Of a DNA stretch of 64,000 nucleotides, positions 21,048-62,955 are shown in pieces. Position numbers and translations under genes: made by a program. This DNA comes from Chrysaora quinquecirrha (taxonomy: Eukaryota; Cnidaria; Scyphozoa; Semaeostomeae; Pelagiidae), in assembly GCA_014526335.1 (NCBI GenBank), contig JACTAT010000044.1, positions 1 to 64,000 on the forward strand, in the 5' to 3' direction. Numbering within the stretch: position 1 is the first letter of the stretch; every line of letters begins with the position of its first letter. Under the pieces are notes generated by a model. That model was not told the DNA's origin. It saw nothing but the letters and a program-made list of their open reading frames with translations, and did no database searches.

Positions 21048-21060
21048 TTCGTATTTCATT

Positions 21061-21400
21061 TATATACTAAGAAGACAAGACTCAAAAGACTAGACTCTTC
21101 ATCTCGACAAGCCTGTTTCGTGGTTTCCCACTCATCAGGAGATGTGCAAATAAATATATTCCTATTTCCATCATTTATATGCTAGGGGTAATTAAGAAAA
21201 TTTATAAAAGATAATTTACAATTTTCGTTCAATTCTTCCTAAAATCAAAAGAGTTCCGTTCTATTCTTCAAGTTGCGATGTGATTCTGATTGCTTAATTC
21301 CCGGGGGTTAAGTAGTTAGCGGCTATGTGTTGACTATGAGTGCTTTGTTTCGGTGGCGGCAGGCAGACACGAGTTCATTTCTCTTGTTTAGGGTGGCCAA
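21061..21400 (+). repeat. Left inverted copy of the Penelope-like element
   Basis: Matches 23319-23655 in reverse complement, starting with ATATACTAAGAAGACAAG and ending with the codons around GGGTGGCCA. A few single-base differences and short indels are visible. Confidence 0.85.
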
Positions 21401-23318: not shown

Positions 23319-23655
23319 TGGCCACCCTAAACAAGAGAAATGAACTCGTGTCTGCCTGCCGCCACCGAAACAAAGCACTCATAGTCAACACATAGCCGCT
23401 TACTACTTAACCCCGGGAATTAAGCAATCAGAATCACATCGCAACATGAAGAATAGAACGGAACTCTTTTGATTTTAGGAACAATTGAACGAAAATTGTA
23501 AATTATCTTTTTTAAATTTTCTTAATTACCCCTAGCATATAAATGATGGAAATAGGAATATATTTATTTGCACATCTCCTGATGAGTGGGAAACCACGAA
23601 ACAGGCTTGTCGAGATGAAGAGTCTAGTCTTTTGAGTCTTGTCTTCTTAGTATAT
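23319..23655 (-). repeat. Right inverted copy of the Penelope-like element
   Basis: It repeats the 3' end of the frame on the plus strand (MATLNKRNELVSACRHRNK and stop), followed by the same untranslated tail as on the left. About 56 bp of unshared sequence separate it from the target duplication. Confidence 0.85.
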
Positions 23656-23729
23656 ATATACCGCTCTACTTAAATGTATCGAGCACTTTTTCGGTAAACC
23701 GAAACACAGACTTCGTATTTCATTTATAT

Positions 23730-33329: not shown

Positions 33330-34790
33330 CAAGATCTGCGAATGGGTCTTCTGATGTTAGTTCCATGGTCAAGGCCTCTTTTATTCCCGCCATTTCGAAT
33401 GCTTTTATGATTGTATAGGAGCTATTTCTAAGGTGATCATAAAGACCTAGCAGCCACCTGGCATGAATCGGTTTGATAATCTAAAACTTCAACAGCACAT
33501 TCACATCATAGACACTACTCCCACTATCGATTTGGTGGGTGACTTGTTGCATACCAGCATTCAAATTTACTCTTGAGAAACTCTTTGGCGTTACCATTGA
33601 CGTTTAGATCCAGAGGCTGAAAATAATCTGTCATATAATTAGGAACATGCAGGATCAAGCAATCATTTTCCTCGATTAACTTATGACTTGTTCCGTGACT
33701 TGGCCTTTAAAGACATCAAAATCAGCATGGCCTTTTGCTCTTCCAGTAACTCTAACTGAGCCTTTCTTTTCTTGAAGTAGAGGAAAACCACTCTTTCCAA
33801 ATGCTCGATTGTCTTTTCTTCGTTGCTCCAATGGTTTGCAGTACATGTGACATTCCAATCATCTGGAAACTCTACCCCTTTTGGAAGACAATGATCGGTG
33901 GTTCCTTGGTAAATCAGTTGCATTGGTAGAAACTGGCCTGACATGGTGATAGTGAAATTACCAGTTATTTGCTTTTTCTTTCCCTTGCCAACAATTGGAA
34001 CATTAGATGTGCCTTGTGTGTGATAGATTCACTTTCCTGTGCAAACATAGGGGAGAGGTGTTTGGTCAAAACTCACTATGAGATCTTCTGGAATTTCATG
34101 CCACGCTTGAAGTCCCTTTATTTTTCTTTGAAAATCTAACTTAGTTTCGTTAAGTAAAGCTGGAGCAATTGGAATCTTTGCAGTAGTGGCCATACGACTT
34201 GTCATTTTTTTACCAAGTTTTTCGAAACGATACAAAACTCGCCGTACCAATCAGTACTGAGGTCGATGTAACCACCATTTTCCAACAGCAATGAGCGATC
34301 GTTTGCGATAATGACACCTCTTGCAACAGCACAAATGACAGTTGCAGAAACAGGAGCCCCTCTCAATAAAAAATTTGCAACAGTTTCGATCACAGTTTCA
34401 TCAAATTTTCAGGTAACAATGTGGGTCGGTTTTTTTCTTTACAATTTCAGTCATATCACAATCCTCTGCTCTTTTAGATATTTTCAGTTTTGTGTAGGCC
34501 AATTTGAAGTCACTAACAGTTTGCCTTTTCAAGCCAGGATATTTCAAGCCAAGGACTCTAATAGCATATGCGTTTCCATGGTCAGCAGCATGTTTACCGA
34601 TCTTGGCTCTCTGAGTTGGTGTCTATACGCGATATTTGGATCGCGTTCCTTTATTTTCTTCAACCTTACATAATTTGTCGACTACACTATCTTTTTCTCT
34701 TTCGCTCAAAGTCTTTTTTTCTTCAGTAGATACAGTCTCACTTGGTTTGGTTGGTTAAAAGTACTTGAACAAAGCCATCGTTGCTTTTGA
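33330..34790 (-). pseudogene. pogo-like (DDE_1/CENP-B-type) transposase relic
   Basis: N-terminal text KTLSEREKDSVVDKLCKVEE, PTQRAKIGKHAADHGNAYAI (helix-turn-helix region), then VIANDRSLLLENGGYIDLST, PEDLIVSFDQTPLPYV (first catalytic Asp), FLPMQLIYQGTTDHCLPKGV, VTCTANHWSNEEKTIEHLER, DFDVFKGQV (second Asp) and MTDYFQPLDLNVN (third). At least four frame changes occur (near 34400, 34230, 34025 and 33720). Transposases of this family cut TA-flanked inverted ends, which agrees with the repeats at 32950 and 43004. Confidence 0.7.
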
Positions 34791-35660
34791 CCACACTTTA
34801 TGCTTTCATCTACCCTTCTCTTTCAATCTAAATTTCTCGTCTTCCATCCACGTGTCACACTAATGTTTTCAGGGGGTTATATTATAATTTATCAGCAGAT
34901 ATTCATTCGTACAATTTCAACAACATTTAATATCTTTATACATCTGTAGATAGATAGAAAAATTTAAGCTCAACCCCCGTTTTTTCATGTTTGAAAAAAT
35001 GAAGGCATAGATGAAAAAAGAAAATTGTCTAGATCTGGGTTGCCACTCTGTGCTGACTAGTTTCCCTTCCCCTACAATGTACAACGCTTGCGGAAACACC
35101 CTACTTTCTGCTAAGGAGAATTTCCATATTTCCCCTACGTTCCTGTACAATAATCCCTACAAAATTCCTCCTACGAGATCCCGGTTACCCGCTACAATTT
35201 TTTTTATAAATTCTTAAGTTGTTTAAAATTTACTTCAATAAAAGGCGTCTAATTAAAAGGGTGTGGTAACCGAAATGCTGGAATCTTTGTGATAATTACC
35301 CACAAGATCTGGAACAAATGACGAGTGAAACCATCATAGTTTTTTGTGAGTCTCAGCCCTGAAGCAGCCCTGTATGCCAGGGCAAAATATTGGCAATTTT
35401 AGGTTATAGTTTTGTTTTTTTTGTCTTTTTCTGCTTGTGCCATTTTGTGTCATTTCTGTTCCCATTTTTTTGCTTGATGCCCTGTTTCCCCGACCCCTAC
35501 GAGTTTCAGCCCTGAGACAGATTTATATGAAAAGTCAAACAAAACAAAAGGAAACAAAAAATAACTTCAGAGAGGTCATCCAAAGGTCAGCAAATTTTTG
35601 CTTTTAATTTCTCTTATTCTCTCGCACGCTAAAAGAACATTACAATTTCTAAACTTAGTT
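34791..35660. other. Spacer, CTACAA-rich in part
   Basis: Positions 35050-35200 are rich in CCTAC and CTACAA motifs, vaguely like 19720-19800 in reverse. I see no coding feature. A possible start of the HIRAN-like frame follows at about 35670. Confidence 0.35.
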
Positions 35661-35669
35661 ACGGATAAC

Positions 35670-35861
35670 ATGGAGTCTGTGTTTAAGACAAACATTGCAA
35701 GCAGAGGGTGGCATTTTTACGGAAAAACTACGTGGAAAAGTCCAAAAAAGGAACAACGATTGCATGCAGAGCAAGAAAAAAGACAAGGTGGCATTGATGC
35801 ACGACCCTTTTGCAGGGGCATGGAAAATGAAAAGCACAGATAAGCTGACTGCTGAGACTGT
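35670..35861 (+). pseudogene. HIRAN-like frame, left part
   Basis: Begins MESVFKTNIASRGWHFYGKT, then, after frame changes near 35750, DKVALMHDPFAGAWKMKSTD and KLTAETV. It stops exactly at the TGT target site (35859-35861). In abundant cnidarian proteins, a similar W-x-x-x...E-x-D-x-x-A-V-A-V block is followed by G-H-I-P-x-x-I-S-R, as is the case here across the insertion. HIRAN domains bind 3' DNA ends in other proteins. The role here is unknown. Confidence 0.45.
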
Positions 35862-36157
35862 TAGACAGGGAATTTCTCTGAGCAATCTAGCAAGCTGGGT
35901 AACCGAAATTTTTGAAGTGGTTCCTATCTCTATGATGTCTGAGGGTCAATTTAAGCATTTGGCACATTCTGAAAAATCAATGGTTGTCACGTGACCGACC
36001 ACGTGGTCACATCACGGTCATAAATATTTTTTTTCTTTATTTTCCAAAGATTAATACATCATTCGAAAGAGCGTGAAGAGCTGAGTAAATAATTATAAAG
36101 CACTTGAGCTCTCAGACTTACCTATTAGCAGTTAGAGCCATTTTAATGTCGCAGAGT
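35862..36157 (+). repeat. Left terminal inverted repeat of the Academ-like element
   Basis: Includes a 12-bp perfect palindrome GACCACGTGGTC at 35997-36008, a possible protein-binding site, and ends at CGCAGAGT (36157). An open frame through its outer half also exists in the other copy but has no gene support. Confidence 0.9.
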
Positions 36158-36526
36158 AGGTCACGCAAAAAATTTTCAGAAAGAAGTTTGTAGTTTCTTA
36201 ATGTCTTAAAATTGCGCATTCTGTGAATTCAGCGCGTTTACTTTCAAGAAAGGCTTTCAAGAGGCCCGGAAGTGTTATTAATCCAGATTATTGAAAAAGG
36301 ATAATAGGTGCAAACACCAATTTCCTGTGCTCTATCATATGTTTCAAAGAACGAGGTGCGAGTTTATTTCAGTTAAAACAATACCACACAAGACGCTTTG
36401 TGTGAAGTCGTGAATGTGAAATATTGAAGATAGGCCGACTCTCTCTCACAGCAAACACGTACGAGGTTTTACCTGATTAAAGAAAAGACAGCCAGATGTT
36501 CAAAGTTTACGGGTAACCTGCGTGAC
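36158..36526 (+). promoter_or_regulatory. 5' leader of the Academ-like transposase gene
   Basis: 369 bp between the left inverted repeat and the ATG. The terminal repeat and this leader must hold any promoter. No clear TATA box at a convincing distance was found. No competing open frame. Confidence 0.35.
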
Positions 36527-39500
36527 ATGGCTCAGTCTAAAGCATTTTTAAGTCCTTACACTGCTGAAAAGGACAAGCACTGTTTTATTTGTTGCAACGA
36601 GATTAAAGGAAGCGAAAAGCCCCAACGAATCGGAGAGAAAGGATATGAAGGGTTTAAGATATCTGCTGAAGAATGGTCACAGATTGACATTCCTGTTCAT
36701 GATGTAAAGCATCGTTTCACAGAGGTTTATGGAAGACTTGAATGTCGTGAAAGTGACAACAGAGAAATAAACGTGCATGCTAATTGTAGAGTGCATTTTC
36801 GAAACAACGTGGAAAGATATAAGAAAAACTACGGCCTCAAGGACAAAACAGTTGATGAGAGTCATGAACATGAAACTGAAGCTACAGTAGAATCTCCGAA
36901 AAAGAAAGCATTGAGGTCTCAAACTGACTCGCTCTCTTCAAAGTATATTTGTTTTATCTGTAATTTAAAGCGTGACATTGACAATAACTCGTATAATGAA
37001 GGGGGGCTGACAAGATGCGCCACACAGCTTACAGCTGACAAACTGATGAATAGGATGGAATTGTTTTTAAAAACGAAGTCTTCTCGTTTTTATTCTGCAG
37101 CCAAACGTCTTAACATTTTGCTTAGTGGGCAGTCTCATGATATCTTCGCAGTGGATATTTACTACCACCAGTCTTGCTATATCAAATATGCATTAAAGCC
37201 GGCAACACAAGAGGAGGTTACTCAGGACAACAAGAAAATCGAAGAAGAAGTATTAGAAGCATTTCTATATAAGGTGAAGACACAAATAATCCGAGACAAA
37301 AACGCATTTCTCTTGAATGAGCTTTTGTTGGATGTTAAAATATTTAGTGAAGAACATGGCCTTGAAACTCCTGCACTTAGTGATACACGATCACTAAAAC
37401 GTTTTTTGGTCGCAAAATTAAAAGATGATGTCGTTTTTTACCCTTCTGGGAAGTTTGTCATTGTACACTCACCAGAGATAAACCCCTGTGAATATTCATT
37501 GGCTACACTACGAGGTAGTGGGTTACGTGATGAAGACATATCGAAATCGTTTGGGAGAATGATTAGAAGGAAACTTAATGCAAAAAAGAAGGCAGAAATG
37601 GAGTTGCCTCTTTCACCAGAGGAGTTTCTCTCGATGCTCGACGAAGGACCACTCCCAGAAATCTATAACGCGATATACTATTCGCTGCACGACAATGGAA
37701 AAAAGAATGAGTATGGGTATGTTATTACATCACGAGTAAAAGCTACTAAAATTTGGTCATTGGCGAGCGACTGGGAGACATTGATGACAGGCTCTCCGTC
37801 TCCAAAACAAGCAATAATGGGTCTAGTACTCCATCGGATAACAGGTAAGAATACGTGATATTTTACATATTATTACGTGGCATCCTATAACATTACAACA
37901 GATTTGTCATCAGCCTAGAAATCCTGCCTTTTCTCTGAACCATTAGTCAAATAGAAATCGATCCACTGAAATTTAGTATCGCAGTTGGCTGGTCTTACTT
38001 TAGACTCCAATAGGAGGGTGCTGACGTCACTGCTAATGGGAAAACCTGCTGTTACAGAATTCCCGCCAAGTGAAACAAGAGGTGTAGTTTGAGACGGACC
38101 ATGAAAAACGAATTTATTTGGCCCAAAGATTGAGAGTCCATTGTATGCTAAACGTTATTAAAGCTTGGTTGTTTAAACAATACTACCATGATATACTAAA
38201 CATGCATTTTCCTCTTTAAACAGGAAATAAGGAAGCTGTAAACGCCCTTCATAAATGCAACCATGTGATGTCCTATCACAACATCAGAATGCAAAACCAA
38301 GCATGGGCACGCATGATATCAGCTCAGAAAACATCTACGCCAACACTCCGAAAAGGTATCGTTACCCACAGTACAATAGATAATAATGACGGGAGACAAG
38401 AGACCTGGACAGGGTTGGGAACAACACATGATACCAACAAGACTATATTTCAACTTGCGACCCCAGAAGAGCAGAAATACATACCTGTAATCGGTACGTT
38501 GGAGCGTCCACTTGATCTAGCAGAGCCACAAAGCCAGCCCCTTGAGCCTTCAAACTACCACCCTGGAAAGCGTGTAGAACCGCCCTTGTTTCCTTCCCAT
38601 GTCGATCAGAAGAGAAGAGACATTCTAGATTCGTGCCTTGATAGAGATATAGCTTGGTCAATGGCTGGGGCCATCAAGAGTGACGACGAAGAGCTTCCAC
38701 TTCTTGGTTCGTGGACTCCGTTCAATAAGATGATTACGGATCACGTGACAACTGCTTGCATTCAAGAATTTCTTCCAGTAACCCCGCACCCACCAGAGTA
38801 TCCAGTGTGCAAAGATTATTTAGATTTTCTTCTCGAAGTTGTGCAAGAGCTGGAAATTCCTCATATCTTTGTGCATTCAGACGAAATGGTTTACTCGAAG
38901 CTATGCGACATCCTATGGAAAAATCCTCAGATCTACAAAGCCGTAATTTTGCTAATGGGAGGTTTTCACCAACTCCGGGTGATGCAACGTCTATTGTACA
39001 AGCGATACAGCTGTAGAGGATTGAAAGATTGGTTTATAGACGCAGGAATCATTGCATCTGGATCAATTGACCAGGCGTTGGAGGGAAGACATTACTATCG
39101 TTCCATGCGCCTTCACAAAGAATGCTTCGATGCACTTGTACAGTTCAGATTCGAATCTCTGACAGGTAGTGTAAAGTCTCTGTTCATGTCTATTAAATTG
39201 TTTTAAAGTCCCACTAAGCTGGGAAAATCGAATCTAACTTTATCGCTTAGGTTGAAAGTATTCCAAAAGTAACTTATTTTGTGTTTGTTCTTCAAAAAAC
39301 AGCTTAGTCTTTTTCACTAAAACACGGACCTGGAACAAGTTTAACATTCGAGTTTTTCTCTTCAATGCCTGTTTATTTTTTCTGTTTAGTGGGACCTGGA
39401 ACAATTGGTACTCTTGTTAACGCTTTAGCATATCACTCTATGCCTGATCTGAATATGGTAAGTTAATACGTCTGAATTAAGCATATCGATTCATTTGTTT

Positions 39501-42012
39501 TTTTATTTCTTCAGTTGACCATTCTGGTACTGACTTGGATCTGTGTTTGTCAGCATTAAAAGACCTAAGAAAGAGCCCGTCTGCAGAATCTCTAAACAAG
39601 CTTATGATTTTGCCACAGTTCTGCACACTCAAGCAACATATTCTGGAGCACGAGAAGGGGAGCGACGGAGAATTGACGGTTTCGTATTTAAGAGATGTTT
39701 CAGCAATGTTGGCATTGGTATCTGCAGTTCGGGAATGCGATATCGATAGGCATCTTGAAGCGGAGCGTGAAATGGTTTCACTCGCATTTGCATTCGACCA
39801 TCAAAACTATGCCCGTTATTGCAGTTATCAACATGTGTATCTTCAAGACCTGAAGGGGAAGCTTGATCCAGCCTATCACGATCTGAAAAGTCGAGGTCAT
39901 GGTGGAAGTATCAGTGGTGGCTCATTTTCCACAATACACGGGGATCTTATAACTGAGCTTTTCAATAAAGAAACCAAAGGAACTGCCGGTCCGTTTCGGG
40001 CTGGCTTCAGTACTGATATTGAGGCTAAAAATACTTGGGTGCAAACAATCCATATACACAGTATGCTTAGAATTGCTTTAAGAAATCAGCTAAGCATCAA
40101 AACATCCGGAAAACATAAAGAAGCTACAAAAAGTGGAAAAAAACTACACGAAGAACATGTCTCAAACTTGAAGAAGACCTTAAAAGGCTATGGTGTAGAT
40201 CCATTCTCGTGTGACCCACCAAAGTGCTTTTCCACGGGTATAGAAATTGATCGTTTGGTCGTGACGGATATGCTCAAGGCATCAGAAACTGGCAACGAGG
40301 CCTTTCTCACATTTGTTTCAGAGAGGCTGATTGCTGGCTCAAAGAGTTTCTTTGAACCAATAAAGAGATTAAAATTGAACACGGGAATCGTCGCAAAGAA
40401 GAAAACTATCAAGGCAATATCTGTTCTGAAAGAAGACTGCCAAGCATTCGGACTCATTGTATCGAAGTCTTTGAGCTTGGAAGAAGCTTTCCGTTTCCCG
40501 ATCACAACCTTCCCGTTGTCCATTGCAACTCCAGAAGGAAATCTACGTCAATCAGATAAGGCTTCATTCAGGAATTTCCTGATAGTGCAGTCAAAGTGCT
40601 CTACGAACAACGTTCCACTGCATGCAGCTTGGTTCATTGATGGTATGGCCGCAGTTAGGTCCTTAAAATCAAAGGCAACATATAGAGAATGGATCAAAAA
40701 CCTTTTGAAATTTTTGCAGCCACCAGATGAATTGAAGCCGTGTTTGGTTGGGATGATTAACGATACATATCAGCAGAAAAGTGTAAAAGCTGGCACGAGA
40801 AGATATCGCGGGGAAGCCGGCCTTGCATCTAAGCTCGAAGGCTTTGAGCAACATATGCCGAAAGGATTAAAGTGGAACGAATTTTTAAAGAACCAAGGCA
40901 ACAAGACAGAACTTATTAAGTTAATCACAGAATACATCATCACAGAGGAGGCAAGATCGAAACTAACGCAACCATTCATCGTTACGAATGGCTGCGAAAC
41001 TCTCAAAGTGCAGCACGATGGATTTGAGCTCATGTACAGGTGTAACCACGAAGAAGCCGACACTCGGTTGGCTTTGCATGCATCTCTTGAAGAAAGTGAT
41101 GTAATAATTGTCTCCAAAGATACGGATGTCTTAGTTCTGCTTGTATGGACTTACTCAATGTGCTCTCCAGGAAAGAAATGGCTTTTTAAATACGACCAAG
41201 ATAAATACGCAGACATAGGTGTAATTTGCGAATTCTTAGGGCCTGATATTTGTCAAGCGCTACCTGCAATGCACGCAATGACTGGATGCGACACCACATC
41301 TTACTTTTTCAAGACTGGGAAGGTAAAAGTCTTTAAAAAACTTTTAAACGATCCAGCAAAATGCAAACTTTTGCAAAACTTGGGACGGGATTCAGATCTA
41401 AAGTCAGATGACATCGAAGACTTGAAAGAATTTATCAGGACTGTTATATATAATGGTAAAGATAGTGAAACATACGTAGAAACAAGAATTCGCCTTTATA
41501 AGGAAATGAAGTCAAAGTCTTCCCTGTCCGTCTCACCTGACCCTGATTCCGCTGAACAGGCGATCAGGCGTGCCAACTATCAAGTTTTTCACTGGGTGAG
41601 ATGTCATGAAATCAACATTGAACATATAATTTTCGAAAACAACGGATGGAAATGGGATGATGAATTGTGCTGTGTAACACCTGTGTGGTTTACTGGAGAC
41701 CAGTTGCCACCATCACTGAATAAGGCAAAAAAACGCAAAAAGAAGACAGTCGAAGAGGATGATGAAGATGGTGATGTGGAGATGACTAGTGACACTGACG
41801 ACGATATGCCTATGCTTAAACGAAAATCGAAGACCAAATTGCAAAGTAAGAACCGTTTGCCCGAGCCAGAGACCATATACGATGGAGATACAGAAATGAG
41901 CACGAGAGAAGCAATAGATACTACCGATGTTTCAGATCTTGATGCAAATAGTGAGTGGGAAGTATCCGATTTTTCTTCGAGCGAGGAATCGATGGATGAA
42001 TGGCTGCCTTAA
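36527..42012 (+). CDS. Academ-like transposase, three exons, 1,585 residues
   Basis: Exons are 36527-37844, 38224-39165 and 39515-42012 (stop included). Both introns have GT-AG ends, both junctions are phase 1, and the 4,758 nt give 1,586 codons without a stop. N-terminus: two Cys/His clusters (C19, C22 with H84, C87; C142, C145 with H214, C217), likely zinc-binding. Residues about 750-1060 are helical and Lys-rich. C-terminal third: a PIN/XPG-like nuclease pattern, with FIDG (D1129), INDTY (D1170), HEEADTR (E1267, D1269), KDTDVLVLL (D1289, D1291) and TGCDTT (D1346), the acidic residues that bind metal in that fold. The tail has a basic KKRKKK stretch (possible nuclear signal) and acidic runs. 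The gene likely cuts the element's ends. Start: first ATG of the open frame. Alternative: a domesticated gene, but the terminal repeats and target duplication argue for a TE. Confidence 0.85.
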
Positions 42013-42188
42013 TCATTGATGAAACTATCGTGACTATAGACTTTAGATTATTTTTCTTGTTAAATAGATGAATTTAATGTATTGACTTTCAAAAGTGCTT
42101 GTGGCAGCAGCTTACAGAGCAACTTTAGACATGTAATAATTTCGAGAGAAACAACTGCGACCTTTTTCCTGACAACAATTTTTGGTCA

Positions 42189-42484
42189 ACTCTGCGACAT
42201 TAAAATGGCTCTAACTGCTAATAGGTAAGTCTGAGAGCTCAAGTGCTTTATAATTATTTACTCAGCTCTTCACGCTCTTTCGAATGATGTATTAATCTTT
42301 GGAAAATAACGAAAAAAAATATTTATGACCGTGATGTGACCACGTGGTCGGTCACATGACAACCATTGTTTTTTCAGAATGTGCCAAATGCTTAAAATGA
42401 TCCTCAGACATCATAGAGATAGGAACCACTTCAAAAAATTCGGTTACCCAGTTTGCTAGATTGCTCAGAGAAATTCCCTGTCTA
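42189..42484 (-). repeat. Right terminal inverted repeat of the Academ-like element
   Basis: Reverse complement of 35862-36157 at about 97-98 percent by eye count. The same palindrome lies at 42338-42349. Confidence 0.9.
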
Positions 42485-42487
42485 TGT

Positions 42488-42871
42488 TGGAAACATCCCA
42501 AAAGAATTGTCAAGGGCTGCCTTTTTTTTCCTAAAGAGACGAGGGAAGATCTCCCTAGGATTGTATTTGAAGAAAAATGTTGACCTTCCCCGATACCAAA
42601 AGGAGGATTAGAAATTATGCTTGAAGTCAAATTGAAGATTGAAGATGACAAGAGAAAGATTCTCGAACGCTTTCAGAACATAATTGAAAGTAATTACGAG
42701 AACAATACCACAAGCAAGCGCCCAATTTATGACCAGGCACAGGCAGTTTTGAACCTGCAAGCAGAGAATTTTGGAGCAGCTCCGGAAGCTTTTAAGTCAG
42801 GTGAAGAGGGTGAAGAAGAAGAGGATCATCTAATTGATGACGGAGACGATGAATTTATGTGTCTTGATTAA
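42488..42871 (+). pseudogene. HIRAN-like frame, right part
   Basis: Picks up directly after the target duplication with GNIPKELSRAAFFFLKRRGK, then in a second frame PIPKGGLEIMLEVKLKIEDD and an acidic C-terminus ending at TAA 42869-42871. A shift near 42590 is present. In the family, P-R-x-I-S-R...F-x-x-R-G-G...G-G-L-E-I-P is conserved, and this copy keeps most of it. Confidence 0.5.
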
Positions 42872-43099
42872 AACAATTAATTTCGTGATATTTAAAGCTT
42901 GTAAACGAAATTAGAAAAAAAAACTTTCCCAAGATTTTTGGCGTTACAAACTTTCGGACACTTCTTTGTCCGAAAGTTTGTCGTGCCAAAACTTTTTGGG
43001 ATTAATGTAATTTTGTGTTGGCAATACTGCTAGGTTTGGGATTGTCGCATGTAGGACACTCAAAAACAGGAAAACCTCAAAGATGAACTGGACATCCTG

Positions 43100-44035
43100 A
43101 ACTGTGTGCTTGTGTCTCTGGCTGAGCCTCTGCTCTGATTTCGTCTGCATCTGTTTCAGTGCTTTCTGGCAACTGGATATCCTCTTCGTGTTCTCGATTG
43201 CTTACTTGTATGGTTCTTAGCAGCTACAAATGGAAAGATTTCATTTAGGTTTAGAAAGTAAAGTATTACGAGTATGTATTACGAGTTATGTATTACGAGT
43301 TATGTATTACGAGTTTCATTTGTAATGGTGTTATTCATTTACTTCTAATAATTACCATAGAATATCACAGTATTTTTTGTAGCCTATTATCGTGAAATTA
43401 GAACCTTCCCAGATAAGGACATGACCCTCAAACCAAGATGTGAAAACGGAAAGGTTAGCATTTCTCTGTCTTATCAACATGGGTTTTGATAAAAGCAATG
43501 ATATTTTGATAAAGAAAATCATTCTCACTGCTCTTCTTTCTCTCGTTGAGGTTGCCGTTCCAGCTGAAGTGCTCTCCGATTCTTGATTTCTTGTTTGTGG
43601 ATTGAAAACAGTCAGTAATGCATCTTTTTTTAAAAAGTGCCTCATGTTTGAACTGTCGAAGCCAGGAAGGTCTAGAGCGAACAGTTTCTCGTACGATTCA
43701 GGTGTTAAATGGTCAGAACACAAATAAGAACCAACTGAGTATGTTTCGGGATTGAAATTCACGTGATACCTCCAAACAAAGCGGGTCAATTGCCTCCGTA
43801 AATTCTTGCCTTTTCTGGGAAACATGTGCATGCTTATGCCTGGTGTCATACTACTATTTGTACAGCTGATACCTTTACGTAATCCTGCCACACAGAATTG
43901 ACCTCCTCGTTTCGCCTTTTTACTTTTCGGTACACATGATTCTTGGTCTGGACTGCCATTAGGACTTCCATAGGATTGTGATGAATTTTGAGGGTCCATT
44001 TCGCTACTCAGTTTAGTGTGTGATTCTGTTTTCAT
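43100..44035 (-). pseudogene. THAP-domain gene fragment, two exons
   Basis: Exon 1 runs from ATG 44035 to about 43548 and encodes a THAP zinc finger: FCVAGLRKGISCTNSS (C2 pair), GISMHMFPRKGK, RFVWRYHVNF, YLCSDHLTPESY (C and H) and FLKKDALLTVF. It ends at a GTGAGA donor. Exon 2 starts after TTTGTAG near 43227 with LRTIQVSNREHEEDIQLPES and an acidic stretch. It is lost near 43010 at the inverted repeat. The Kolobok/THAP-like relic at 30660-32705 lies on the same strand beyond the composite element and lacks exactly this N-terminus, so both may be one gene split by the insertion. Confidence 0.65.
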
Positions 44036-44599
44036 GAAAAACTGATCTGTCCTCTTCTGTGGACTATGAAAACTGATATTTAATTAGCGTCATTTATTAC
44101 CCATGGAACATTTGGAATTTCCTTTCAAGTTTTCAATATTGAAAAGCCCCCAAAATCTTTTAAAATGACACATTAACAAACAGGTCAAAGAAACTGGTCT
44201 TTATCTTCATGTATTCCAACTTATTATGACATGTTTCTGTATTACGAAATTTCCTGACAAATTTCCTATGAAATTTCCTTCACACATTGAAACTTTTTGA
44301 TACAAATCAACCATAGAGTCGTTTACGATAGTGTAATTACTAACTCAAAACGTGCAAACTGTATTGAAACTAAACAAAGCTAACTCATTGTGTCCAATTT
44401 CTGACGTCACAGACTTTTGGTGCCAGCAATCTGACCACATTCAAATTTTGCCTCTGACGGTCACAGAAAATGGCATTTAAAATCAACATAACTCAAAAAC
44501 TAAAGAAGCTATTAAAAAACGGTAAAAAAGTTTTGAATTCAGCCAAAAAAAGTCAATTATATGAGAAAATATCATTTTTTATGTCATTTCCTCTTTAAA
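44036..44599. other. No feature seen
   Basis: AT-rich sequence upstream of the THAP exon, likely its 5' flank. Confidence 0.35.
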
Positions 44600-45130
44600 G
44601 GTAAAATAGCAAGTGATCTGTCGGCTTTGAAAAAACTTAAAAAGATACTTCCTTAATCTAAACTGTGTGAGGTCTATCATGTGCTAGTTGAAAGTCACCT
44701 CCGATATGGGAATGTTGTCTGGGGTAGCTTATCCAATACGAATCTTCCAACGCTTTAGCAGCTATAAAACATGGCCTTCTTGATCATTGAAAATGCTGAG
44801 CGAAAAGAGTCCTGGACTAATAATGGGCTAATATTTGAACCAATAATTTATCTTGATAGATCTATTATGACTAAATGATAGTAAATAGGCAGTGCCCCAA
44901 GATCCTCTGGAAAAAATTTGAGCAGAGGAATGAGATTTCTAGGTATAACACTAGAAAAAACAAAATCTTGACATCCCTAAGCTAAATCTTGAATGTACAA
45001 AAAGGGTTTCCACTTTTCTTGGCTTAAAGCCTGGAATGAAATACCCAAGGATATGAGGGAAACTTCCTCCCTCTATCAGTTTAAAAGATAATTAAAAACG
45101 CATTTAAAAGCTCAGCAAACATTTAACTGA
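44600..45130 (+). mobile_element. LINE RT C-terminal remnant
   Basis: Reads SKLCEVYHVLVESHLRYGNV and VWGSLSNTNLP, then KESWTNN and LAWLKAWNEIPKDMR-like text with many stops and shifts. This is the C-terminal domain after the RT core in CR1/L2-type non-LTR elements. It is strongly decayed. Confidence 0.6.
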
Positions 45131-45475
45131 AACATGACTCCCAGGAAGATCAGATATTGATAAGGACCTGTCTAGGGCAACAAATTATTTCTAAGATTTG
45201 ATATTTTTACTTCAGCCAAAATTATGTATAATTATTACTTTACTTTTTCCGACGGGATATTGTGTATAAATACGAATTAATATAATATAATATTGAATTA
45301 AAGTATTCAGAAAAGAGTTAAATCTCAAATGTAGTATGTGAGAATAGTATATAAATAATGATGTGATTACATGCACATTTTAAGCAACAACAGGTGAAGC
45401 AGAATGGCTAATTTAATATGAACTTGCTGTCTTCAACAGATATCACAGTGGGATTTACAAATATCTGACATAGGG

Positions 45476-45970
45476 TTAATTAATTCTTTTGGAATTATTA
45501 ATATGGCATTTTATGTATGCACAAAATTTGTACATGCCAATATATTTTGAATCTGAAGTCAAAATTATTTCAGGTACAAAATCCAATAAAAGATAATTAT
45601 TCACTGTTTCTGTTGGTGTGCTTGTTTCTCTGCTGTACTGGTGTAATATATTCGTCAATGTCACATTATTTAAGAATTTCAAACAGTCTATGTGCTTGGA
45701 TATAATACGAGATATTAGTTTTGAATAGTCACTCCTTTGCAACTCAAGATCTTGCATACAAGGAAGAAACTTGGTGTTGTTGATATTCCCTACAACTTCC
45801 TCCTTATTCTTTGCTTCGCCAGACAGATGACTTGCATATATTGGTTCTTTGTTGATATAACTGATACCCAGTGTAGATCTTAGTTTTGGCAAACCTCAGA
45901 CATTTCATAACATTGAATATAAAGATCAAGATTGTCAAAAGTTATTCTCCTTCTTTCGTCAACACCTAGA
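45476..45970 (-). pseudogene. Relic of an uncharacterised cnidarian protein family (possibly DUF6589-type)
   Basis: From about 45970: ERRRITFDNLDLYIQCYEMS, then after a shift near 45895 the frame MPKLRSTLGISYINKEPIYA to ILHQYSRETSTPTETVNNYL. The block D-N-L-D-x-x-x-x...M-S/T-x-x-x-Q-N and Y-S-x-E-x-x-x-x-T-x-x-V is one I associate with a repeated, TE-like cnidarian family. The domain name is tentative and function unknown. Confidence 0.35.
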
Positions 45971-47529
45971 AAAATAACAAGAAACATACATGAACTTCAA
46001 AATTATGTCAACACCATCTTGTTTTACACCAGCCAGAATCACCTAGAATCAGTCCGGACTGGACAGAAATGGGATTAGGATTGTGAATCTTGGAATGGGA
46101 ATCAAATTCAGTAGGTCACGTTTAATGCCTTTTGATTTCTCTTAAAAACATTTTAAAGCTGGGTTTTCACAAAAGTCGATTTCATCAAACTAGCAGCACA
46201 TGATAAAATATTATCATATGTGTCGTGGCCAGCAACAGCTTTTTACTTAAAAATTTTGGAATCCAAATCGAAACAAAAATTGTACAGGAAACTAAAGCCT
46301 GCCGCACACTGTGAGCAAAATGCTGAGCAAAATGCCATTCCTGTCACTTTGCTCCGCAAAATTCTTAACATGTGCATGGAATTTTTGCTGAGAAATTTGT
46401 GATTTGTACCTGTGAGGAAAATATCTGAAAAGTATGAATTAAATTGAAATGAAGCCATTGCAGTGCAACTGTGTTTACTGAAAGACTGTGTTTACCTAAA
46501 ATGCTTACTGCCCTGTAATGTTGACAGATCCAACTGTGTACTTGCATAAGCACACCATGTACAAACAGGAAGCGCCCCATGATTCTTTCTTGTATATAAT
46601 TGTAAATATCATTGATTAACGTTTGTTCAGTATGTAGCATAAAGCATGTAGTCTGTATCTGTGCCATCTCTCTCTAACAATGTGACTTCGGTCACAAGCA
46701 AGCATACAACAACATTACAGAATCAACATGACATGGTTGTAATACACGTTTTTTTATCGGAAGTATTCTGTTTCTGTTGAGACTGGAGTTTAGAGTTTTT
46801 GAATTAATGCTTTATCAAAATGAGGCTTAGCCTTATATACACTGCTCCTTGTCTGCAAATGCCTTTAAAGTTACTTCATTTTCCAGGAGGTCTTAGGCCG
46901 AGTTCCTTAGAAAATGTTCCTTTTATGACAAAAGTAATGTTATTGACATATAAAAAACGTGTACTTATTGACACATGAAAATGTGTTGTTATTGACATAT
47001 AAGCAGTACGTCTTTATTAAATCAGTTGTTCAGTTTAAAGTAGAATGCAAAGAGAACACAAAAACTGCTTCTTGTGGCCATGTTATAGCTTCACTGTGTC
47101 ATTAAGAACTTGGATGTTCTGATAATGGAATTCTTCAAAATAACTGTGCAAGCAATCTTATACAAAATAAACATAAACAGGCCCTTCAGGTGCTTGAATT
47201 TTTCTTTACTTGTCTGTGTATCGTATGGCAGCATGTGACTTCAATTTCATTTAGCTACGATCCTCTTCAGATCTTTCAGGTGAATGGAGGATTGCATTCA
47301 ATTTTCATCCGCAGCGGAGACAATAAATAAGTGTCAGGAGTGTCATACATTGAAGTTTTTGTGAAACTCGAATTCTAAAATAACCTTGAAACCATCTTGT
47401 GCTACATCTTTAAATGTAAAAACATGGGTTTGATGCTTGCTCTCTTGGAATCAATTCTTGATTTGCCCCAAGTCTTAGTTTCTGGGAAATTTCTGGGCAA
47501 AGGGTAGCAAGTAACCCCTCTGGAGGTGA
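45971..47529. other. No gene seen; a few short repeats
   Basis: AT-rich. TTATTGACATATAA-type units occur three times at about 46930-47005. No frame with a recognisable motif. Confidence 0.35.
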
Positions 47530-47909
47530 GTGCAGCGAGCGAGTGGAGTGAAAACTTACACTTGTAACTTTTGTCACACGTTAATTATTCATAGCCAATT
47601 ATTCATAGCCATTGATCACATGCAAACCCTGGATCAAAGAGCAAGGCGGGTTTTCAAGTCCAGAATCCAAGAAAAAAGAATCAACTCAGTTTCACCAAAT
47701 TTGCGGACAAACAAGAAACTCCGGAGAGTTCTCCAGTGAAGCCGATAGAGTACATTTCATCAAGTGGGAACAATTTTTGGGCACTTTCTAAAATCGATAA
47801 ATACAAGAATCAAGTTCAGTTTTGTGTGAAGATTTTTACAGAGAATGGAGACACTCGGCAGTTGTTTGAAGATTATCTGAGCACCAATTCAATCCCCACA
47901 CAGATCTAA
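47530..47909 (+). pseudogene. Unrecognised coding scrap
   Basis: Two frames carry normal-looking peptide: QKRINSVSPNLRTNKKLRRV (47680-47737) and, after a one-base shift, YISSSGNNFWALSKIDKYKN and FTENGDTRQLFEDYLSTNSI ending at TAA 47907-47909. It looks like the last exon of a gene or element. No family recognised. Confidence 0.3.
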
Positions 47910-47937
47910 CATAAATCTGAAGAGGCTACTGTTCTAT

Positions 47938-48345
47938 AAAAGCTTTTTTTTCGTCTTACACTCCTCAGGGTATAAATGTCAGAAACAGACTGAAAAAATG
48001 AACTAAGGCAGATTTTCTACCAAGATATGGCTTGAAATGCACCGATCAGAAAGAGAAGCTGAATTGGCATTGTGTTTTAAACACCAATCAGCTGGCCAGA
48101 TACAGTGGGAAGACGAGTACAACTTGTTTTCATTTTCATACTTGGACTATTCAATTAATTCTATTGGTCTTCCAGCTGTACCCGGCTAGCTGATTGTTGT
48201 TTAAAACACAATGCCAATTCAACTTCTCTTTCCGATTGGTGCATTTTGGGCCATATCTTGGTATTAAATGTGCCCTTGTTCATTGTTTCTGTCTGTTTCT
48301 GACTAATATAGTCTGAGGAGTTTCAGATGAAAAAAAGCTTTTAAG
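47938..48345. mobile_element. Hairpin MITE, about 408 bp
   Basis: Ends are TAAAAGCTTTTTTTTCGTCT on the left and, in reverse, TTAAAAGCTTTTTTTCATCT on the right. The arms of about 170 bp share CTCCTCAG, GTCAGAAACAGAC, CCAAGATATGG and GGCATTGTGTTTTAAACA. No coding capacity. The outer 70 bp resemble 3265-3330 inside the foldback element. Confidence 0.8.
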
Positions 48346-48545
48346 TATGCCCAAAAATGTTTCCACTGTTGATCGCAATTTCAAAGTTTTGTACAACTCA
48401 AAAACTATGTACATATCATATGTTTCTTAATATGTATGCTTTAGAAAATTGTTTTAAAAACCTTTCAATAAAATCTTAGAAAATTATGTATTGGTGGACC
48501 ATTTAAATGTTTTGCTCCCTATGGATAATTTAATTAAACAACTAT

Positions 48546-49285
48546 TAAGTTGAATCACTTTGTGACATTTTCCTGTTTACCGTGTATTTATTAATTTGTT
48601 CTTCAAAGTCCAGTGAGTCATCTGTTGATGGACAAGACGAGTCTGTGCTCTCAGGCTCCAAATTAATCTTATTACTGAAGAATGTGCTATCCCATTCATC
48701 ATCAACAGTAGCTTCTTGTGACTGTACATCATCTTCAAAGCTGATGTTTTTAAAACTCTTTCTATGATTTCCATGATACCAGTTGCCAAGTCATACCATC
48801 AAGAAGGACAACATTTTTTTAAATGTCTTCAACAGATCTAATCTTTTGAAAATTTGCTACCAATCTTGAGATGGTGAGAGCAGGCAGGCCTGTAACCATG
48901 TCCATTCCAGATAAAAGATTATCCTTGTATACTTGTAGCTTTTGCTTCAAAACTTCTCTTCACGCCTCAATTTCTCTTCACAATTCAGTTTTTTGTAAGA
49001 ACTTGCAGCAGTCTGCAAATGTCACAGGAATTGTGACTTAGATTAACTGCAGAATAATTGCCAGGGAAAAGTCTTAATGCAATCCTCAGTTAAATCATGA
49101 AACATTTCATATGGCCATTCATCTGCTTTGTAAAACATGCCAAGTTCTTCATCAAAATAAGCAAACAAGGCACGAACAAGACTGCGTTCACGACAGAGTA
49201 CTATGTATCTTGAACAGGCTCTACTTTCTGCTTTCACTTGCGCCGGGTGCCAGGTTAAGCTGAACGTATTGTTTGCAATGCCCAC
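48546..49285 (-). pseudogene. Unrecognised coding relic
   Basis: The minus strand has LFAYFDEELGMFYKADEWPY and CIKTFPWQLF (49180-49050), LLSGMDMVTGLPALTISRLV (about 48920), and GNWYHGNHRKSFKNISFEDD with an acidic Ser-rich tail ending at a stop near 48550. These are in different frames. The order and composition suggest one decayed gene. I do not recognise it. Confidence 0.35.
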
Positions 49286-49406
49286 ATATCATTCCCCATT
49301 CTCGGTCTCTGATTGGTTAAAAACGAACGATACGCTACCGATTGCGTGATTTGATTGGCTGAGGGAATAGTATGCTGGTGGCATTAAGTAGTCCGTCTTT
49401 TAGCCT

Positions 49407-49965
49407 ATGGGTCATTCGTCAGTCAAAAGATTTTGTGACTATTGCAAAAACAATCTCAGACCCATTGACAACGAAAGTCATTTCTTATTCGACTGCGCTA
49501 TGAATAGTAGCCAAAGAGAAAAATTCCTCTCTAAGATAAATTTAAAAAAAGGTAACTTAGAATCTTTATCTGAGACAGAAAAGATAGACATATTTAAAAC
49601 AATTTTGAATTCCGAAAATAAACAAAAGATAGCATACTTAGCTGAGTTTGTATATTTATCACAGTTAGAAAGAGAAAGAGAACAGTATTTTCAAGTTAAT
49701 GCTTAGTTATAGAGATATGATTGCTTTTAAAATATAATATTGATATATTAATAATAACCTAGATGTATTAGACATAAAGTAGTATGTAAGCTTGAATTCA
49801 ATGCGAGTATGTTGTCTTATATTATTTATGATAGTAATTTCTACTTTGTATTTTGCAATTTTGTACTTCGTATCTTAAGTAACTTTATTTGTTAGTTAAG
49901 TACGTTTAAATTGTAAAATACCAGACCCCCAGAGGGTGATGTATTAATGAAATTGAAATTGAAAA
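49407..49965 (+). mobile_element. LINE 3' end with C-terminal zinc-like motif
   Basis: The 99-residue frame has FCDYCKNNLRPIDNESHFLF and DC, the C-x2-C...H-x4-C motif at the end of many CR1/L2/Jockey-type RT proteins, then AYLAEFVYLSQLEREREQ. The 3' untranslated part ends in (TGAAAT)n-like sequence at about 49950-49965, a usual LINE tail. 5' truncated. The upstream half is missing. Confidence 0.7.
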
Positions 49966-57783: not shown

Positions 57784-60093
57784 TATGACAACCAGCCAAT
57801 CAGCAAGCCTTTATAGTTCCGATATTCAACTAACCATTTGCAGACTCGCATTTAATTTAAATTTTTTGACAAATGTAAGTTGCGAGGGGAGAGTTATTGG
57901 TGACTCGTTTGAATTCTACGAAACGCAAATTATTCTCCGTTAGTCAAAACAAATATCTAACCGAAGTGGCCTTTTCCAGAGAAAACAACATGCTACGACA
58001 GCAAGTTTACAAACTCGAAAAACAAAACTCAGAACAAAGGCGGCATCAAAACAGCAACAATATGAGGTTTGAAAAGTTTCAATGGTAAGTAGAGAGTAGC
58101 TTAGTAGGCATAACACCGTAATATTCTATCTAATATTCTGTATTTTGCTCCCGATCAAGTTTTCAAGTAAACATTATAACGATGATATATTTTTAGTGCT
58201 GAATATTTTGAAGACAACTTTTAGTAGAAATGAAGAAATTGCAAGAAATATTGGAATCCAAAGAAAAGCTTATAAGCACAATAAAGGAGTTGATGGTGCG
58301 AAAACCGAATATTACCAACATTTGAGGAACTGATTACTTCCATCAGAACATATTTTCATAATAGATGTAGCGTTCTGGCTGTTAAAAATAGTCAAAGAAC
58401 GAGGCATCACAAGAGAAACATGACAATGTTAAATATTGTGAATTTCGTAAGTTAACTATAACTGGCTCCTTTTCTGTTAATAATATTTTTGGCACTGTTA
58501 TTGTGGAAAGTTTGAATGGCAAGCTCGAATTTTGAATCAAGTGTCATGAGGTCAAAGGTAAATTTAAAAAAAGATGTCCTTGGAAATTTTTCAATTGAAA
58601 GTCAGAAATGACATCATTCATTCTCACTTTTTGTAGTCTATATTGCTTGGAATTACAACTTGCAGAATCAGAGGAACTGGAAGAAAGGCATTTAGGGCAA
58701 TACAATAGGACAATCAGAGAATTCCACAATTTTTGCCCCATGCTTCCAGCACCCCTGCTTACAATTGTTCATTGAAAGTTGTGAAACGATTTCCTATGAA
58801 GCAGTAAAAGTAGCAATACAGCAGGAGAAAGTCAATCAAAGTAACCCTGAAGAAATAGCCAATTTTAAGAAACAGGTCTGTATCAAGACTATAGATGACA
58901 TAAAAACACTAACAAGCTCTGATGATGAAGAAGGAAGAACCCAACAAGAAGAAAGAAAGTTGGAAGGTCTTCAAAGAGGGTTAAAAGAGAGGGTTCTGCA
59001 GTATGAAAAACTCAGAGACAGTTTCAACAGGATCATGCCAGAAGAATACAGTCAGTGTGATGAAATTCAACTTTCTTGACGACTAATAAGATTAAACAAT
59101 GTTCATTATTCTTATCGTCTAATTAACACCACCCCTCTCAGACTCCAAAGACTATCGACAAACGCTCTGGTCAATGTCATGAGAAACTGTGTAGAACCCT
59201 CATACAGTGCAGGAAGAGTAGACCGTTCGTTGCAACAGCTAATTAGTGAGCTTCAGAACAGGTGGCTTAAGACTTTTCAACATATGAGACATTCTTGCAC
59301 AGGGGAGACCCTTTGTAGACAGGTAATGCTGCTCATCAAGGCCCCGTTAAGTTCGTGTTTTATTATTCGATCTTTTTGATGAACTAGGAAAGTAAACACA
59401 CCATTAACGAAATTTAAACCACTTGAACAATTTTGTCGAACACTTTCAACCTAATTGTATAATTCTAATAAATGAGGTTCAGCAGTGTTTTCAGTTTCTT
59501 CAAGCACTAGTGCAGTAAAAATTAAAAAGAAGGGAAATGAACAACAATGAATGGGAAATGAGCTTGTTTTTCTGCTAGGTTTTTCAACTTTGTATGCTAC
59601 TACGAAAAAAAGCACAAGCTTTTGTTAGTACCATTTTGTTTGAATTCTTTTGGTTCTGTTCCTGATATATACACATCATTTTCCATTTCCATATCAAATT
59701 CTCCAAATACATTGTCCAAATCCATATCTATTGAGTCATTAAATTCTTCAGACTGATGTTGATTGCCTCATATTTTCCATAAACTTCAATATGTTGATTT
59801 ACGCAACGTCTCGTATAGTATTCTTCCCCTTTACAACAATAACACATGCATGGAAGTTCCCTGCTTCAGTTAAAGATGAATTTCACGAATTTTCTGATCT
59901 CCAGACTCTCTGTCATGAATCACCAATGCAATCAATGTTCATGAAAAAAGTAGAGAAGAGCAGTAAGGTTTTCCTTGCCACGCCACACTGAACCAAGAAT
60001 TGACATGCTTTCCCCTTGTTCTTAATCGTTTCTTATTGGATATTTGATATGTGATTTCACAGCATGTTTTTGTCACAGGAACAGAGAGTCGTC
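57784..60093 (+). repeat. Tandem 2.3-kb unit, copy 1
   Basis: Starts at GCCAATCAGCAAGCCTTTAT and matches copy 2 across its full length with a shift of 2,309-2,316 bp. The first 1 kb is noticeably diverged from copies 2 and 3; the last 1.2 kb (58850-60090) is about 99 percent identical to 61165-62405 by eye. Confidence 0.9.
57897..59322 (+). pseudogene. Coiled-coil gene of unknown family, copy 1
   Basis: Exon-like blocks: NSTKRKLFSVSQNKYLTEVA with RENNMLRQQVYKLEKQNSEQ (leucine-zipper-like, 57897-58085), a second block near 58230-58450 with RCHKRN-type basic end, ELQLAESEELEERHLGQYNR (about 58650-58720) and the frame 58765-59079 (NPEEIANFKKQVCIKTIDDI, EERKLEGLQRGLKERVLQYE). Another block at 59160-59322 encodes NCVEPSYSAGRVDRSLQQLI and ends at a GT donor. 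Block borders fit AG/GT. TGA at 58331 and frame changes between blocks suggest decay. I do not know the family. Confidence 0.4.
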
Positions 60094-62408
60094 AGGTGAC
60101 AGTCAATCAGCAAGCATCTTATAGTTCCGATATTCAACTAACCATTAGCAGACTCGCATTTAATTTCAATTTATTGACAAATGTAAGTTGCGAGGGGGAG
60201 AATTAGTGGTAACTTGTTTGAATTCCACAAAACGCAAAGTATTCTCCATTTTTCAAAACAAATATCTAACTGAAGTGGACATTTCCAGAGAAAACGACAT
60301 GCTACGACAGCTTGTTAATAATCTCCAGAAAGAAAACAGCGAACTCAGAAGAAAGGCGGCTTCAAAACAACACCAATATCAGGTTTGAAAAGTTTCAAGG
60401 GTAAGTAGAGAGTTGCTTGGTAGGCCTAGCACCGTAATATTCTTTCTGATATTCTGTATTGCTCTCTTGATTAAGTTTTCGAGTAAACATTATAATGATG
60501 ATATATTTCCAGTGCAGATTATTTTGAAGACAACTTTTAGTAGAAATGAAGAAATCGCAAGAAATATTGGAATCCAAAGAACAGCTTAAGAGCACAATGA
60601 AGAACGAGTTGATAGCGCAAAACCAAATATTACCAACGTCTGAGGAACTGATTACTTCCATCAGTACATATTTTCATAATAGAAGTAGAGTTCTGGCTGT
60701 TAAAAATAGTCCAAGCAAGAGGCGTCACAAGAGAAACATGACAAAGTTAAATGTTGTGAATTTCGTAAGTCAACTATATCTGGCTCCTTTTCTGTTTATA
60801 ATATTTTTTGCACCGTTTTTTCGGAAAATTTGAATGGCAAGCTCGAATTTCTAATCAAGTGTCATGAAGTCAAAGGTAAATTTAAAAAACGATGTCCTTG
60901 GAATTTCTCAATTGAAAGTCAGAAATGACATCATTCATTTTCACTTTTTGTTGTCTATTTTGCTTGGAATTACAACTTGAGAATCAGAGGAACTGGAAGA
61001 AAGGCATCTAGGGCAAAACAATATGACAATCAGAGAATTCCACAATTTTTGCACCTTGCTTTCAGCACCCCTGCTTACAATTTTTCATTGAAAATTGTGA
61101 AACGATTTCTCAAGGAGCAGTAAAAGTAGCAATATGCCAGGGGAAAGTCAATCAAAGTGACCCTGAAGAAATAGCCAATTTTAAGAAACAGGTCTGTATC
61201 AAGACTATAGATGACATAAAAACACTAACAAGCTCTGATGATGAAGAAGGAAGAACCCAACAAGAAGAAAGAAAGTTGGAAGGTCTTCAAAGAGGGTTAA
61301 AAGAGAGGGTTCTGCAGTATGACAAACTCAGAGACAGTTTCAACAGGATCATGCCAGAAGAATACAGTCAGTGTGATGAAATTCAACTTTCTTGACGACT
61401 AATAAGATTAAACAATGTTCATTATTCTTATCGTCTAATTAACACCACCCCTCTCAGACTCCAAAGACTATCGACAAACGCTCTGGTCAATGTCATGAGA
61501 AACTGTGTAGAACCCTCATACTGTGCAGGAAGAGTAGACCGTTCGTTGCAACAGCTAATTAGTGAGCTTCAGAACAGGTGGCTTAAGACTTTTCAACATA
61601 TGAGACATTCTTGCACAGGGGAGACCCTTGGTAGACAGGTAATGCTGCTCATCAAGGCCCCGTTAAGTTCGTGTTTTATTATTCCATCTTTTTGATGAAC
61701 TAGGAAAGTAAACACACCATTAACGAAATTTAAACCACTTGAACAATTTTGTCGAACACTCTCAACCTAATTGTATAATTCTAATAAATGAGGTTCAGCA
61801 GTGTTTTCAGTTTCTTCAAGCACTAGTGCAGTAAAAATTAAAAAGAAAGGAAATGAACAACAATGAATGGGAAATGAGCTTGTTTTTCTGCTAGGTTTTT
61901 CAACTTTGTATGCTACTACGAAAAAAAGCACAACCTTTTGTTAGTACCATTTTGTTTGAATTCTTTTGGTTCTGTTCCTGATATATACACATCATTTTCC
62001 ATTTTCATATCAAATTCTCCAAATACATTGTCCAAATCCATATCTATTGAGTCATTAAATTCTTCAGACTGATGTTGATTGCCTCATATTTTCCATAAAC
62101 TTCAATATCTTGATTTACGTAACGTCTCGTATAGTATTCTTCCCCTTTACAACAATAACACATGCATGGAAGTTCCCTGCTTCAGTTAAAGATGAATTTC
62201 ACAAATTTTCTGATCTCCAGACTCTCTGTCATGAATCACCGATGCAATCAATGTTCATGAAAAAAGTAGAGAAGAGCAGTAAGGTTTTCCTTGCCACGCC
62301 ACACTGAACCAAGAATTGACATGCTTTCCCCTTGTTCTTAATCGTTTCTTATTGGATGTTTGATATGTGATTTCACAGCATGTTTTTGTCACAGGAACAG
62401 AGAGTCGT
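60094..62408 (+). repeat. Tandem 2.3-kb unit, copy 2
   Basis: Full-length copy. Its first part is closest to copy 3 and its last part closest to copy 1. Confidence 0.9.
60188..61638 (+). CDS. Coiled-coil gene of unknown family, copy 2
   Basis: Better preserved than copy 1. The first block (60188-60388) gives VVTCLNSTKRKVFSIFQNKY and RENDMLRQLVNNLQKENSEL. The second (60546-60765) gives MKKSQEILESKEQLKSTMKN, ITSISTYFHNRSRVLAVKNS and KRRHKRNMTKLNVVNF before a GTAAGT donor. The third block (61083-61395) gives NPEE-type SDPEEIANFKKQVCIKTIDD and ends in a stop; the block at 61477-61638 parallels copy 1. Predicted product is helical and rich in Lys and Glu. Joining of exons is not proven. Confidence 0.4.
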
Positions 62409-62955
62409 CAGGTGACAGTCAATCAGCAAGCATCTTATAGTTCCGATATTCAACTAACCATTAGCAGACTCGCATTTAATTTCAATTTATTGACAAATGT
62501 AAGTTGCGAGGGGGAGAATTAGTGGTAACTTGTTTGAATTCCACAAAACGCAAAGTATTCTCCATTTTTCAAAACAAATATCTAACTGAAGTGGACATTT
62601 CCAGAGAAAACGACATGCTACGACAGCTTGTTAATAATCTCCAGAAAGAAAACAGCGAACTCAGAACAAAGGCGGCATCAAAACAGCACCAACATCAGGT
62701 TTGAAAAGTTTCAATGGTAAGTAGAGAGTTGCTTGGTAGGCCTAACACCGTAATGTTCTATCTGATATTCTGTATTTTGCTCTCGATCAAGTTTTCGAGT
62801 AAACACTATAACAATGATATATTTTTAGTGCAGATTATTTTCAAGAAAACTTTTAGTAAAAATGAAGAAATCGCAAGAAATATTGAAATCCAAAGAAAAG
62901 CTTAAGAGCACAATGAAGAACGAGTTGATGGCGCAAAACCGAATATTATGAACTG
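62409..62955 (+). repeat. Tandem 2.3-kb unit, partial copy 3
   Basis: Covers the first 547 bp of the unit and stops at about 62955 (CGAATATTATG), where unrelated minus-strand coding sequence begins. Confidence 0.9.
62504..62952 (+). pseudogene. Coiled-coil gene of unknown family, truncated copy 3
   Basis: The first block (62504-62704) is nearly identical to copy 2. The second block starts MKKSQEILKSKEKLKSTMKN but ends in the truncated unit at TGA near 62950. Confidence 0.5.

Follow-up and report, generated by a model that had tools for sequence, protein, structure and literature searches.

A probable AcademX-like transposon with complete ends and its own spliced gene in a contig of Chrysaora quinquecirrha

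The stretch of DNA analysed here (the window) is 64 kb long, positions 1 to 64,000 of contig JACTAT010000044.1 (labelled C368) of the scyphozoan Chrysaora quinquecirrha (assembly GCA_014526335.1), and it contains a mobile element of 6,623 bp whose parts are listed in Table 1. The terminal inverted repeats, 296 nt each and spaced 6,031 nt apart, are 98% complementary, and the outermost 32 bp are identical between the left and right ends. A TGT direct repeat flanks the element, the match being limited to 3 bp, and the gene is bounded by the inverted repeats, as in AcademX transposons. A first-pass annotation, made from the sequence alone, had described a structurally complete element with 296-bp inverted ends, about seven mismatches and TGT on either side; completeness is supported, and the count is 7 of 296.

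The gene consists of three exons whose in-phase GT-AG introns leave 1,585 codons with no stop, as had been proposed at the first pass. Both splice junctions are spanned in alignment by seven homologues (P0002, P0034, P0036, P0037, P0038, P0040 and P0042), and P0039 spans junction 1 only; at junction 2 the window protein has one additional residue relative to the homologues. Splice-type borders recur at the same places in the genomic copies named in Table 1, at 53–69% protein similarity by segment. Enumeration of the splice readings gave many other in-frame three- and four-exon versions that are mechanically possible. Since the homologues crossing junction 2 carry no extra residues there, a four-exon gene was rejected in favour of the three-exon model, and the alignments establish the latter as the predicted gene structure. 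Within intron 2, residues of an exon-like stretch at 39390–39461 are absent from the homologues that cross junction 2; it has a good AG border and a weak in-frame donor, just before which lies a stronger GTAAGT that breaks the frame.

Table 1. Coordinates in the window of the element, its gene and the flanking target duplication
Feature	Position	Strand	Remarks
Left TGT target duplication copy	35859..35861	.	CGT single copy at empty site
Left terminal inverted repeat	35862..36157	+	Starts TAGACAGGGAATTTC
Exon 1, transposase gene	36527..37844	+	N-terminal Cys/His-containing segments; winged-helix-like domain via P0034 model
Intron 1, GT-AG	37845..38223	+	Position common to copies L055, L056, L057
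Exon 2	38224..39165	+	Candidate catalytic D492 (38379-38381), D659 (38880-38882)
Intron 2, GT-AG	39166..39514	+	Donor position common to copies L056, L057
Exon 3 to stop	39515..42012	+	DUF6589-like part and candidate catalytic E901 (39955-39957), followed by XPG/FEN1-type nuclease domain
Right terminal inverted repeat	42189..42484	-	Inverted-repeat comparison
Right TGT target duplication copy	42485..42487	.	Single copy at empty site

When 301 bp of the left flank were compared with the 328-Mb assembly, a single further match came up, on contig C286, where the two flanks adjoin (empty site L060, G000:C286:226860-230160). Positions 34063–35865 of the window match C286 at 98.06% and positions 42486–43984 at 98.07%. 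Because C286 holds the flanks joined, with a single CGT against the two TGT copies of the window, the boundaries of the element and its 3-bp duplication are fixed on real DNA, and the comparison shows what appears to be an insertion through a 3-base staggered cut. Since the counterpart on C286 lacks the element, the insertion is no older than about 1.9% divergence, and the earlier description of it as young holds in the sense of fairly young. All seven arm mismatches are private to the window copy, with five changes in the left arm and two in the right against the one state per site shared by the ends found on C429, C171 and, where readable, C290; their frequency cannot be told apart from the divergence of the flanks (p 0.52). 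For these reasons the insertion may be near the age given by this upper bound, unless some of the changes were carried in. We considered that the arm mismatches were older than the insertion and dropped the idea, as all seven are private and their number is no different from that expected at the flank divergence; they are no sign of carried-in changes and give no tighter date.

At the C-terminus of the protein, structural modelling of homologues shows a predicted nuclease fold of XPG/FEN1 type, at about 40555–41640 in exon 3, with conserved acidic residues at D1129, D1170, E1267, D1269, D1289, D1291 and D1346. In the model of the homologue P0034, residues 227–310, corresponding to the exon 1 region, form a winged-helix-like domain. 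Between these lies what is probably a Hermes-like DDE catalytic core with the candidate triad D492, D659 and E901, all three of which are present in the window copy.

The search with the left end (best 40 of 215 candidates, so that counts are lower bounds) found at least six places belonging to the window subfamily, namely the two arms in the window, two places on C171 and one each on C429 and C290, and at least 34 further left-end matches that are 70–78% alike. On C171 the copy is a 2.5-kb internal deletion flanked by the duplication TAG, that on C290 is cut short and contains stops, and C429 has one end only. Five non-autonomous relatives of 2.3–3.0 kb (L012–L016) have a minisatellite core; four of them have arms of about 580–590 bp, and the outer 143–159 bp of this family are about 74–76% like the ends of the window element. 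Similar inverted ends thus occur elsewhere without the gene, a finding that the first-pass annotation had reckoned against its own reading; most of those read at both ends share the 3-bp duplication and look like the internally deleted or non-autonomous relatives expected in such a family. A perfect 3-bp duplication is present in eight of the ten elements read at both ends (the window element, L009, L012–L016, L055, L056 and L058), where chance would give 1.9% per pair; L057, at which no inverted ends were seen, and the one-end loci L010, L011/L024 and L017–L023 stand outside this tally. The exon-3 protein search gave at least 59 matches (best 54 of 1,601 candidates), or about 53 loci after adjacent rows were merged by hand. 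Among the matches listed, the nearest exon 3 of another copy that has no stop is that of L055, 62% identical; L055 was rejected as an intact copy, its exon-2 part being split between two frames. L056 (duplication TGT) looks fresher than the window copy, since its arms are 99.7% identical over 308 bp.

AcademX elements have a nuclease of the XPG type; the window element has a predicted nuclease of that kind, and its 3-bp duplication is confirmed by an actual empty site. The target duplication of hAT elements is 8 bp, and the window element, with 3 bp and the empty site seen, differs in this from Hermes, a member of hAT, as it does in having a C-terminal XPG-type nuclease. From the XPG, FEN1 and Exo1 nucleases that of the window differs in being fused to a transposase, with about 10% identity and no match to XPG in Pfam. 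AcademX was reportedly described by Kojima in 2020. In the excerpts available of two published accounts, AcademX has target duplications of 3 or 4 bp and encodes a nuclease, AcademH, of the same superfamily, encodes a helicase and makes duplications of 9 or 10 bp (PMC10045372), and Academ is listed among the DDD/E superfamilies (PMC9587614). Compared by description, the window element shares with AcademX the 3-bp duplication, a nuclease in place of a helicase and a single large transposase gene, and no tested feature of it differs from AcademX as excerpted. Unlike AcademH so described, it has neither a 9- or 10-bp duplication nor a helicase family among the Pfam matches of its three exons (filters discard most matches above E 0.1). 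We file it as AcademX-like because the 3-bp duplication, the nuclease and the lack of a helicase match form the combination that the excerpt reports for AcademX, and on duplication length and nuclease description the Academ label of the first-pass annotation fits through this lineage. The element is a well-preserved addition to Academ, an already known kind of mobile element.

Taken together, we put at roughly 85% the probability that this is a complete cut-and-paste Academ transposon of an AcademX-like lineage, with its own spliced gene, inserted no more than about 2% divergence ago and most likely heterozygous. A number of results weigh against this. The structural models were made on homologues of the window protein, and the structural match to Hermes, the best one for the catalytic core, lies at the edge of the range reached by unrelated helical models; Foldseek gave no match at E <= 0.001 with either homologue model. 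Other acidic positions, for example D483, D883 and E813 of P0034, equal the triad in conservation, and the triad is therefore a choice by model position. In the Pfam run, DUF6589 was the sole match with E < 0.001 and fell below its cut-off in the window copy (E 1.2e-4, 21.4/27 bits); no XPG family matched, and no Pfam profile labels the protein Academ. Sequence-only searches for a solved relative likewise returned nothing credible. In two of the ten elements of the tally, L015 and L055, the 3 bp at the two ends do not match, and one non-autonomous family accounts for five of the ten. There is one intact copy of the subfamily among the matches listed, and its relics differ from the window copy by about 2–9% (blastn segments), so that no burst is seen. 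The third codon position shows no clear excess of differences from the relics, the counts at positions 1, 2 and 3 being uninformative (13/635, 9/636 and 17/637 for L024; 19/508, 13/508 and 10/508 for L009).

If the cut-and-paste reading is correct, the N-terminal DNA-binding-type segments of the 1,585-residue protein would bind the 296-bp ends, and the DDE core would cut them and join them to target strands staggered by 3 bp, after which gap repair would produce the 3-bp duplication. The fused flap-type nuclease might trim strands or flaps arising from excision or integration. A serious possibility, if somewhat short of an even chance, is that the inserted copy is already immobile, its frame intact through youth alone and its protein non-working or its expression silenced, which would be compatible with the kind of element proposed here. 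It would suit the single intact copy just mentioned and the divergence of the arms from other copies, five private changes on the left and two on the right, but the copy retains the candidate catalytic residues, its two ends agree fully over their first 32 bp and its frame has stayed open through a divergence of at most about 2%. That the element is heterozygous and currently mobile, with a Hermes-like DDE core fused to a flap-type nuclease, is a tentative proposal and, taken as a whole, rather unlikely. Were it true, DUF6589, a "family of unknown function" in Pfam, would belong to the catalytic core in this group of transposases, and the intact gene and the empty allele would allow a direct test of the role of the fused nuclease. 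Academ-type transposons are a large and little-studied kind, and one genome here supplies an intact gene, its ends and its empty site, together with a relative that has lost internal sequence and numerous divergent siblings. A likely identity emerges for DUF6589, and the reason for the presence of a flap-type nuclease in a transposase can now be put to the test.

The empty site on C286 might belong to a segmental duplicate elsewhere in the genome and not to the other allele, in which case the upper bound on age stays and polymorphism is not required. C286 and C368 are indeed separate contigs of one assembly, yet at sampled points C286 is collinear with the window for about 52 kb, between about 8.1 kb (98.9%) and about 60 kb (94–96%, in a tandem repeat), with several insertion/deletion differences within that span, and the 2.9 kb at 46513–49419 of the window has no full-length match except on C286 (best 40 of 5,071 candidates). 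Because this collinearity with indels and the match confined to C286 form a two-haplotype pattern, C286 looks, at the level of sequence, like the other haplotype, and a segmental duplicate is improbable. That an element of another DDE superfamily, for example a hAT-like one, acquired an XPG-type nuclease is very improbable: the core has its best structural match in a hAT transposase, but the 3-bp duplications of eight of the ten elements do not suit hAT with its 8 bp, and a nuclease with a duplication of 3 or 4 bp is the AcademX combination of the excerpt cited above.

Outside the assembly, the protein P0001, filed under a Flavobacteriaceae metagenome bin of 14 contigs, is 96% identical over 801 positions, and the exon-3 tree, used for this purpose only, places it beside the window copy (25 of 28 rows kept; L026, L039 and L041 overlapped too little and were left out). 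As the window gene has introns, the simplest reading is that P0001 is probably a eukaryotic (animal) contaminant of the bacterial bin. Contig searches beyond the host, in genome and viral contigs, gave no confirmed relative. The product of LOC130657893 of Hydractinia symbiolongicarpus (P0034) is 45.6% identical to the window protein over 933 aligned positions and carries an annotated DUF6589; it differs in its length of 913 aa and in being without the nuclease part.

The sequence interrupted by the element (35659–35861 and 42488–42870) is protein-like and resembles what we take to be a HIRAN-type protein, with no Pfam family matched. An outside frame had earlier been said to rejoin on removal of the element; the two parts do rejoin, but the frame is not intact, being split in both the filled and the empty copies, and the element therefore landed in a probably already broken gene. 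About 0.9 kb past the right end, an open frame on the minus strand (43352–44083) has a THAP domain (E 3.7e-6). Positions 44181–45987 and about 49420–49965 of the window are missing from the collinear C286 and are further presence/absence differences; the latter stretch is repeated elsewhere at up to 98%. A tandem duplication at 57793–62948, with a unit of about 2.3 kb and 94.5% likeness, has matching sequence on C286. The far right of the window (63118–63744, minus strand) holds a degenerate, distant relative of the transposase, with 24–33% identity to family members by tblastn. Finally, inverted arms of 342 bp that are 98% alike (21058–21399 and 23319–23659) enclose open frames, one of which resembles what is presumably a GIY-YIG/Penelope-type protein.
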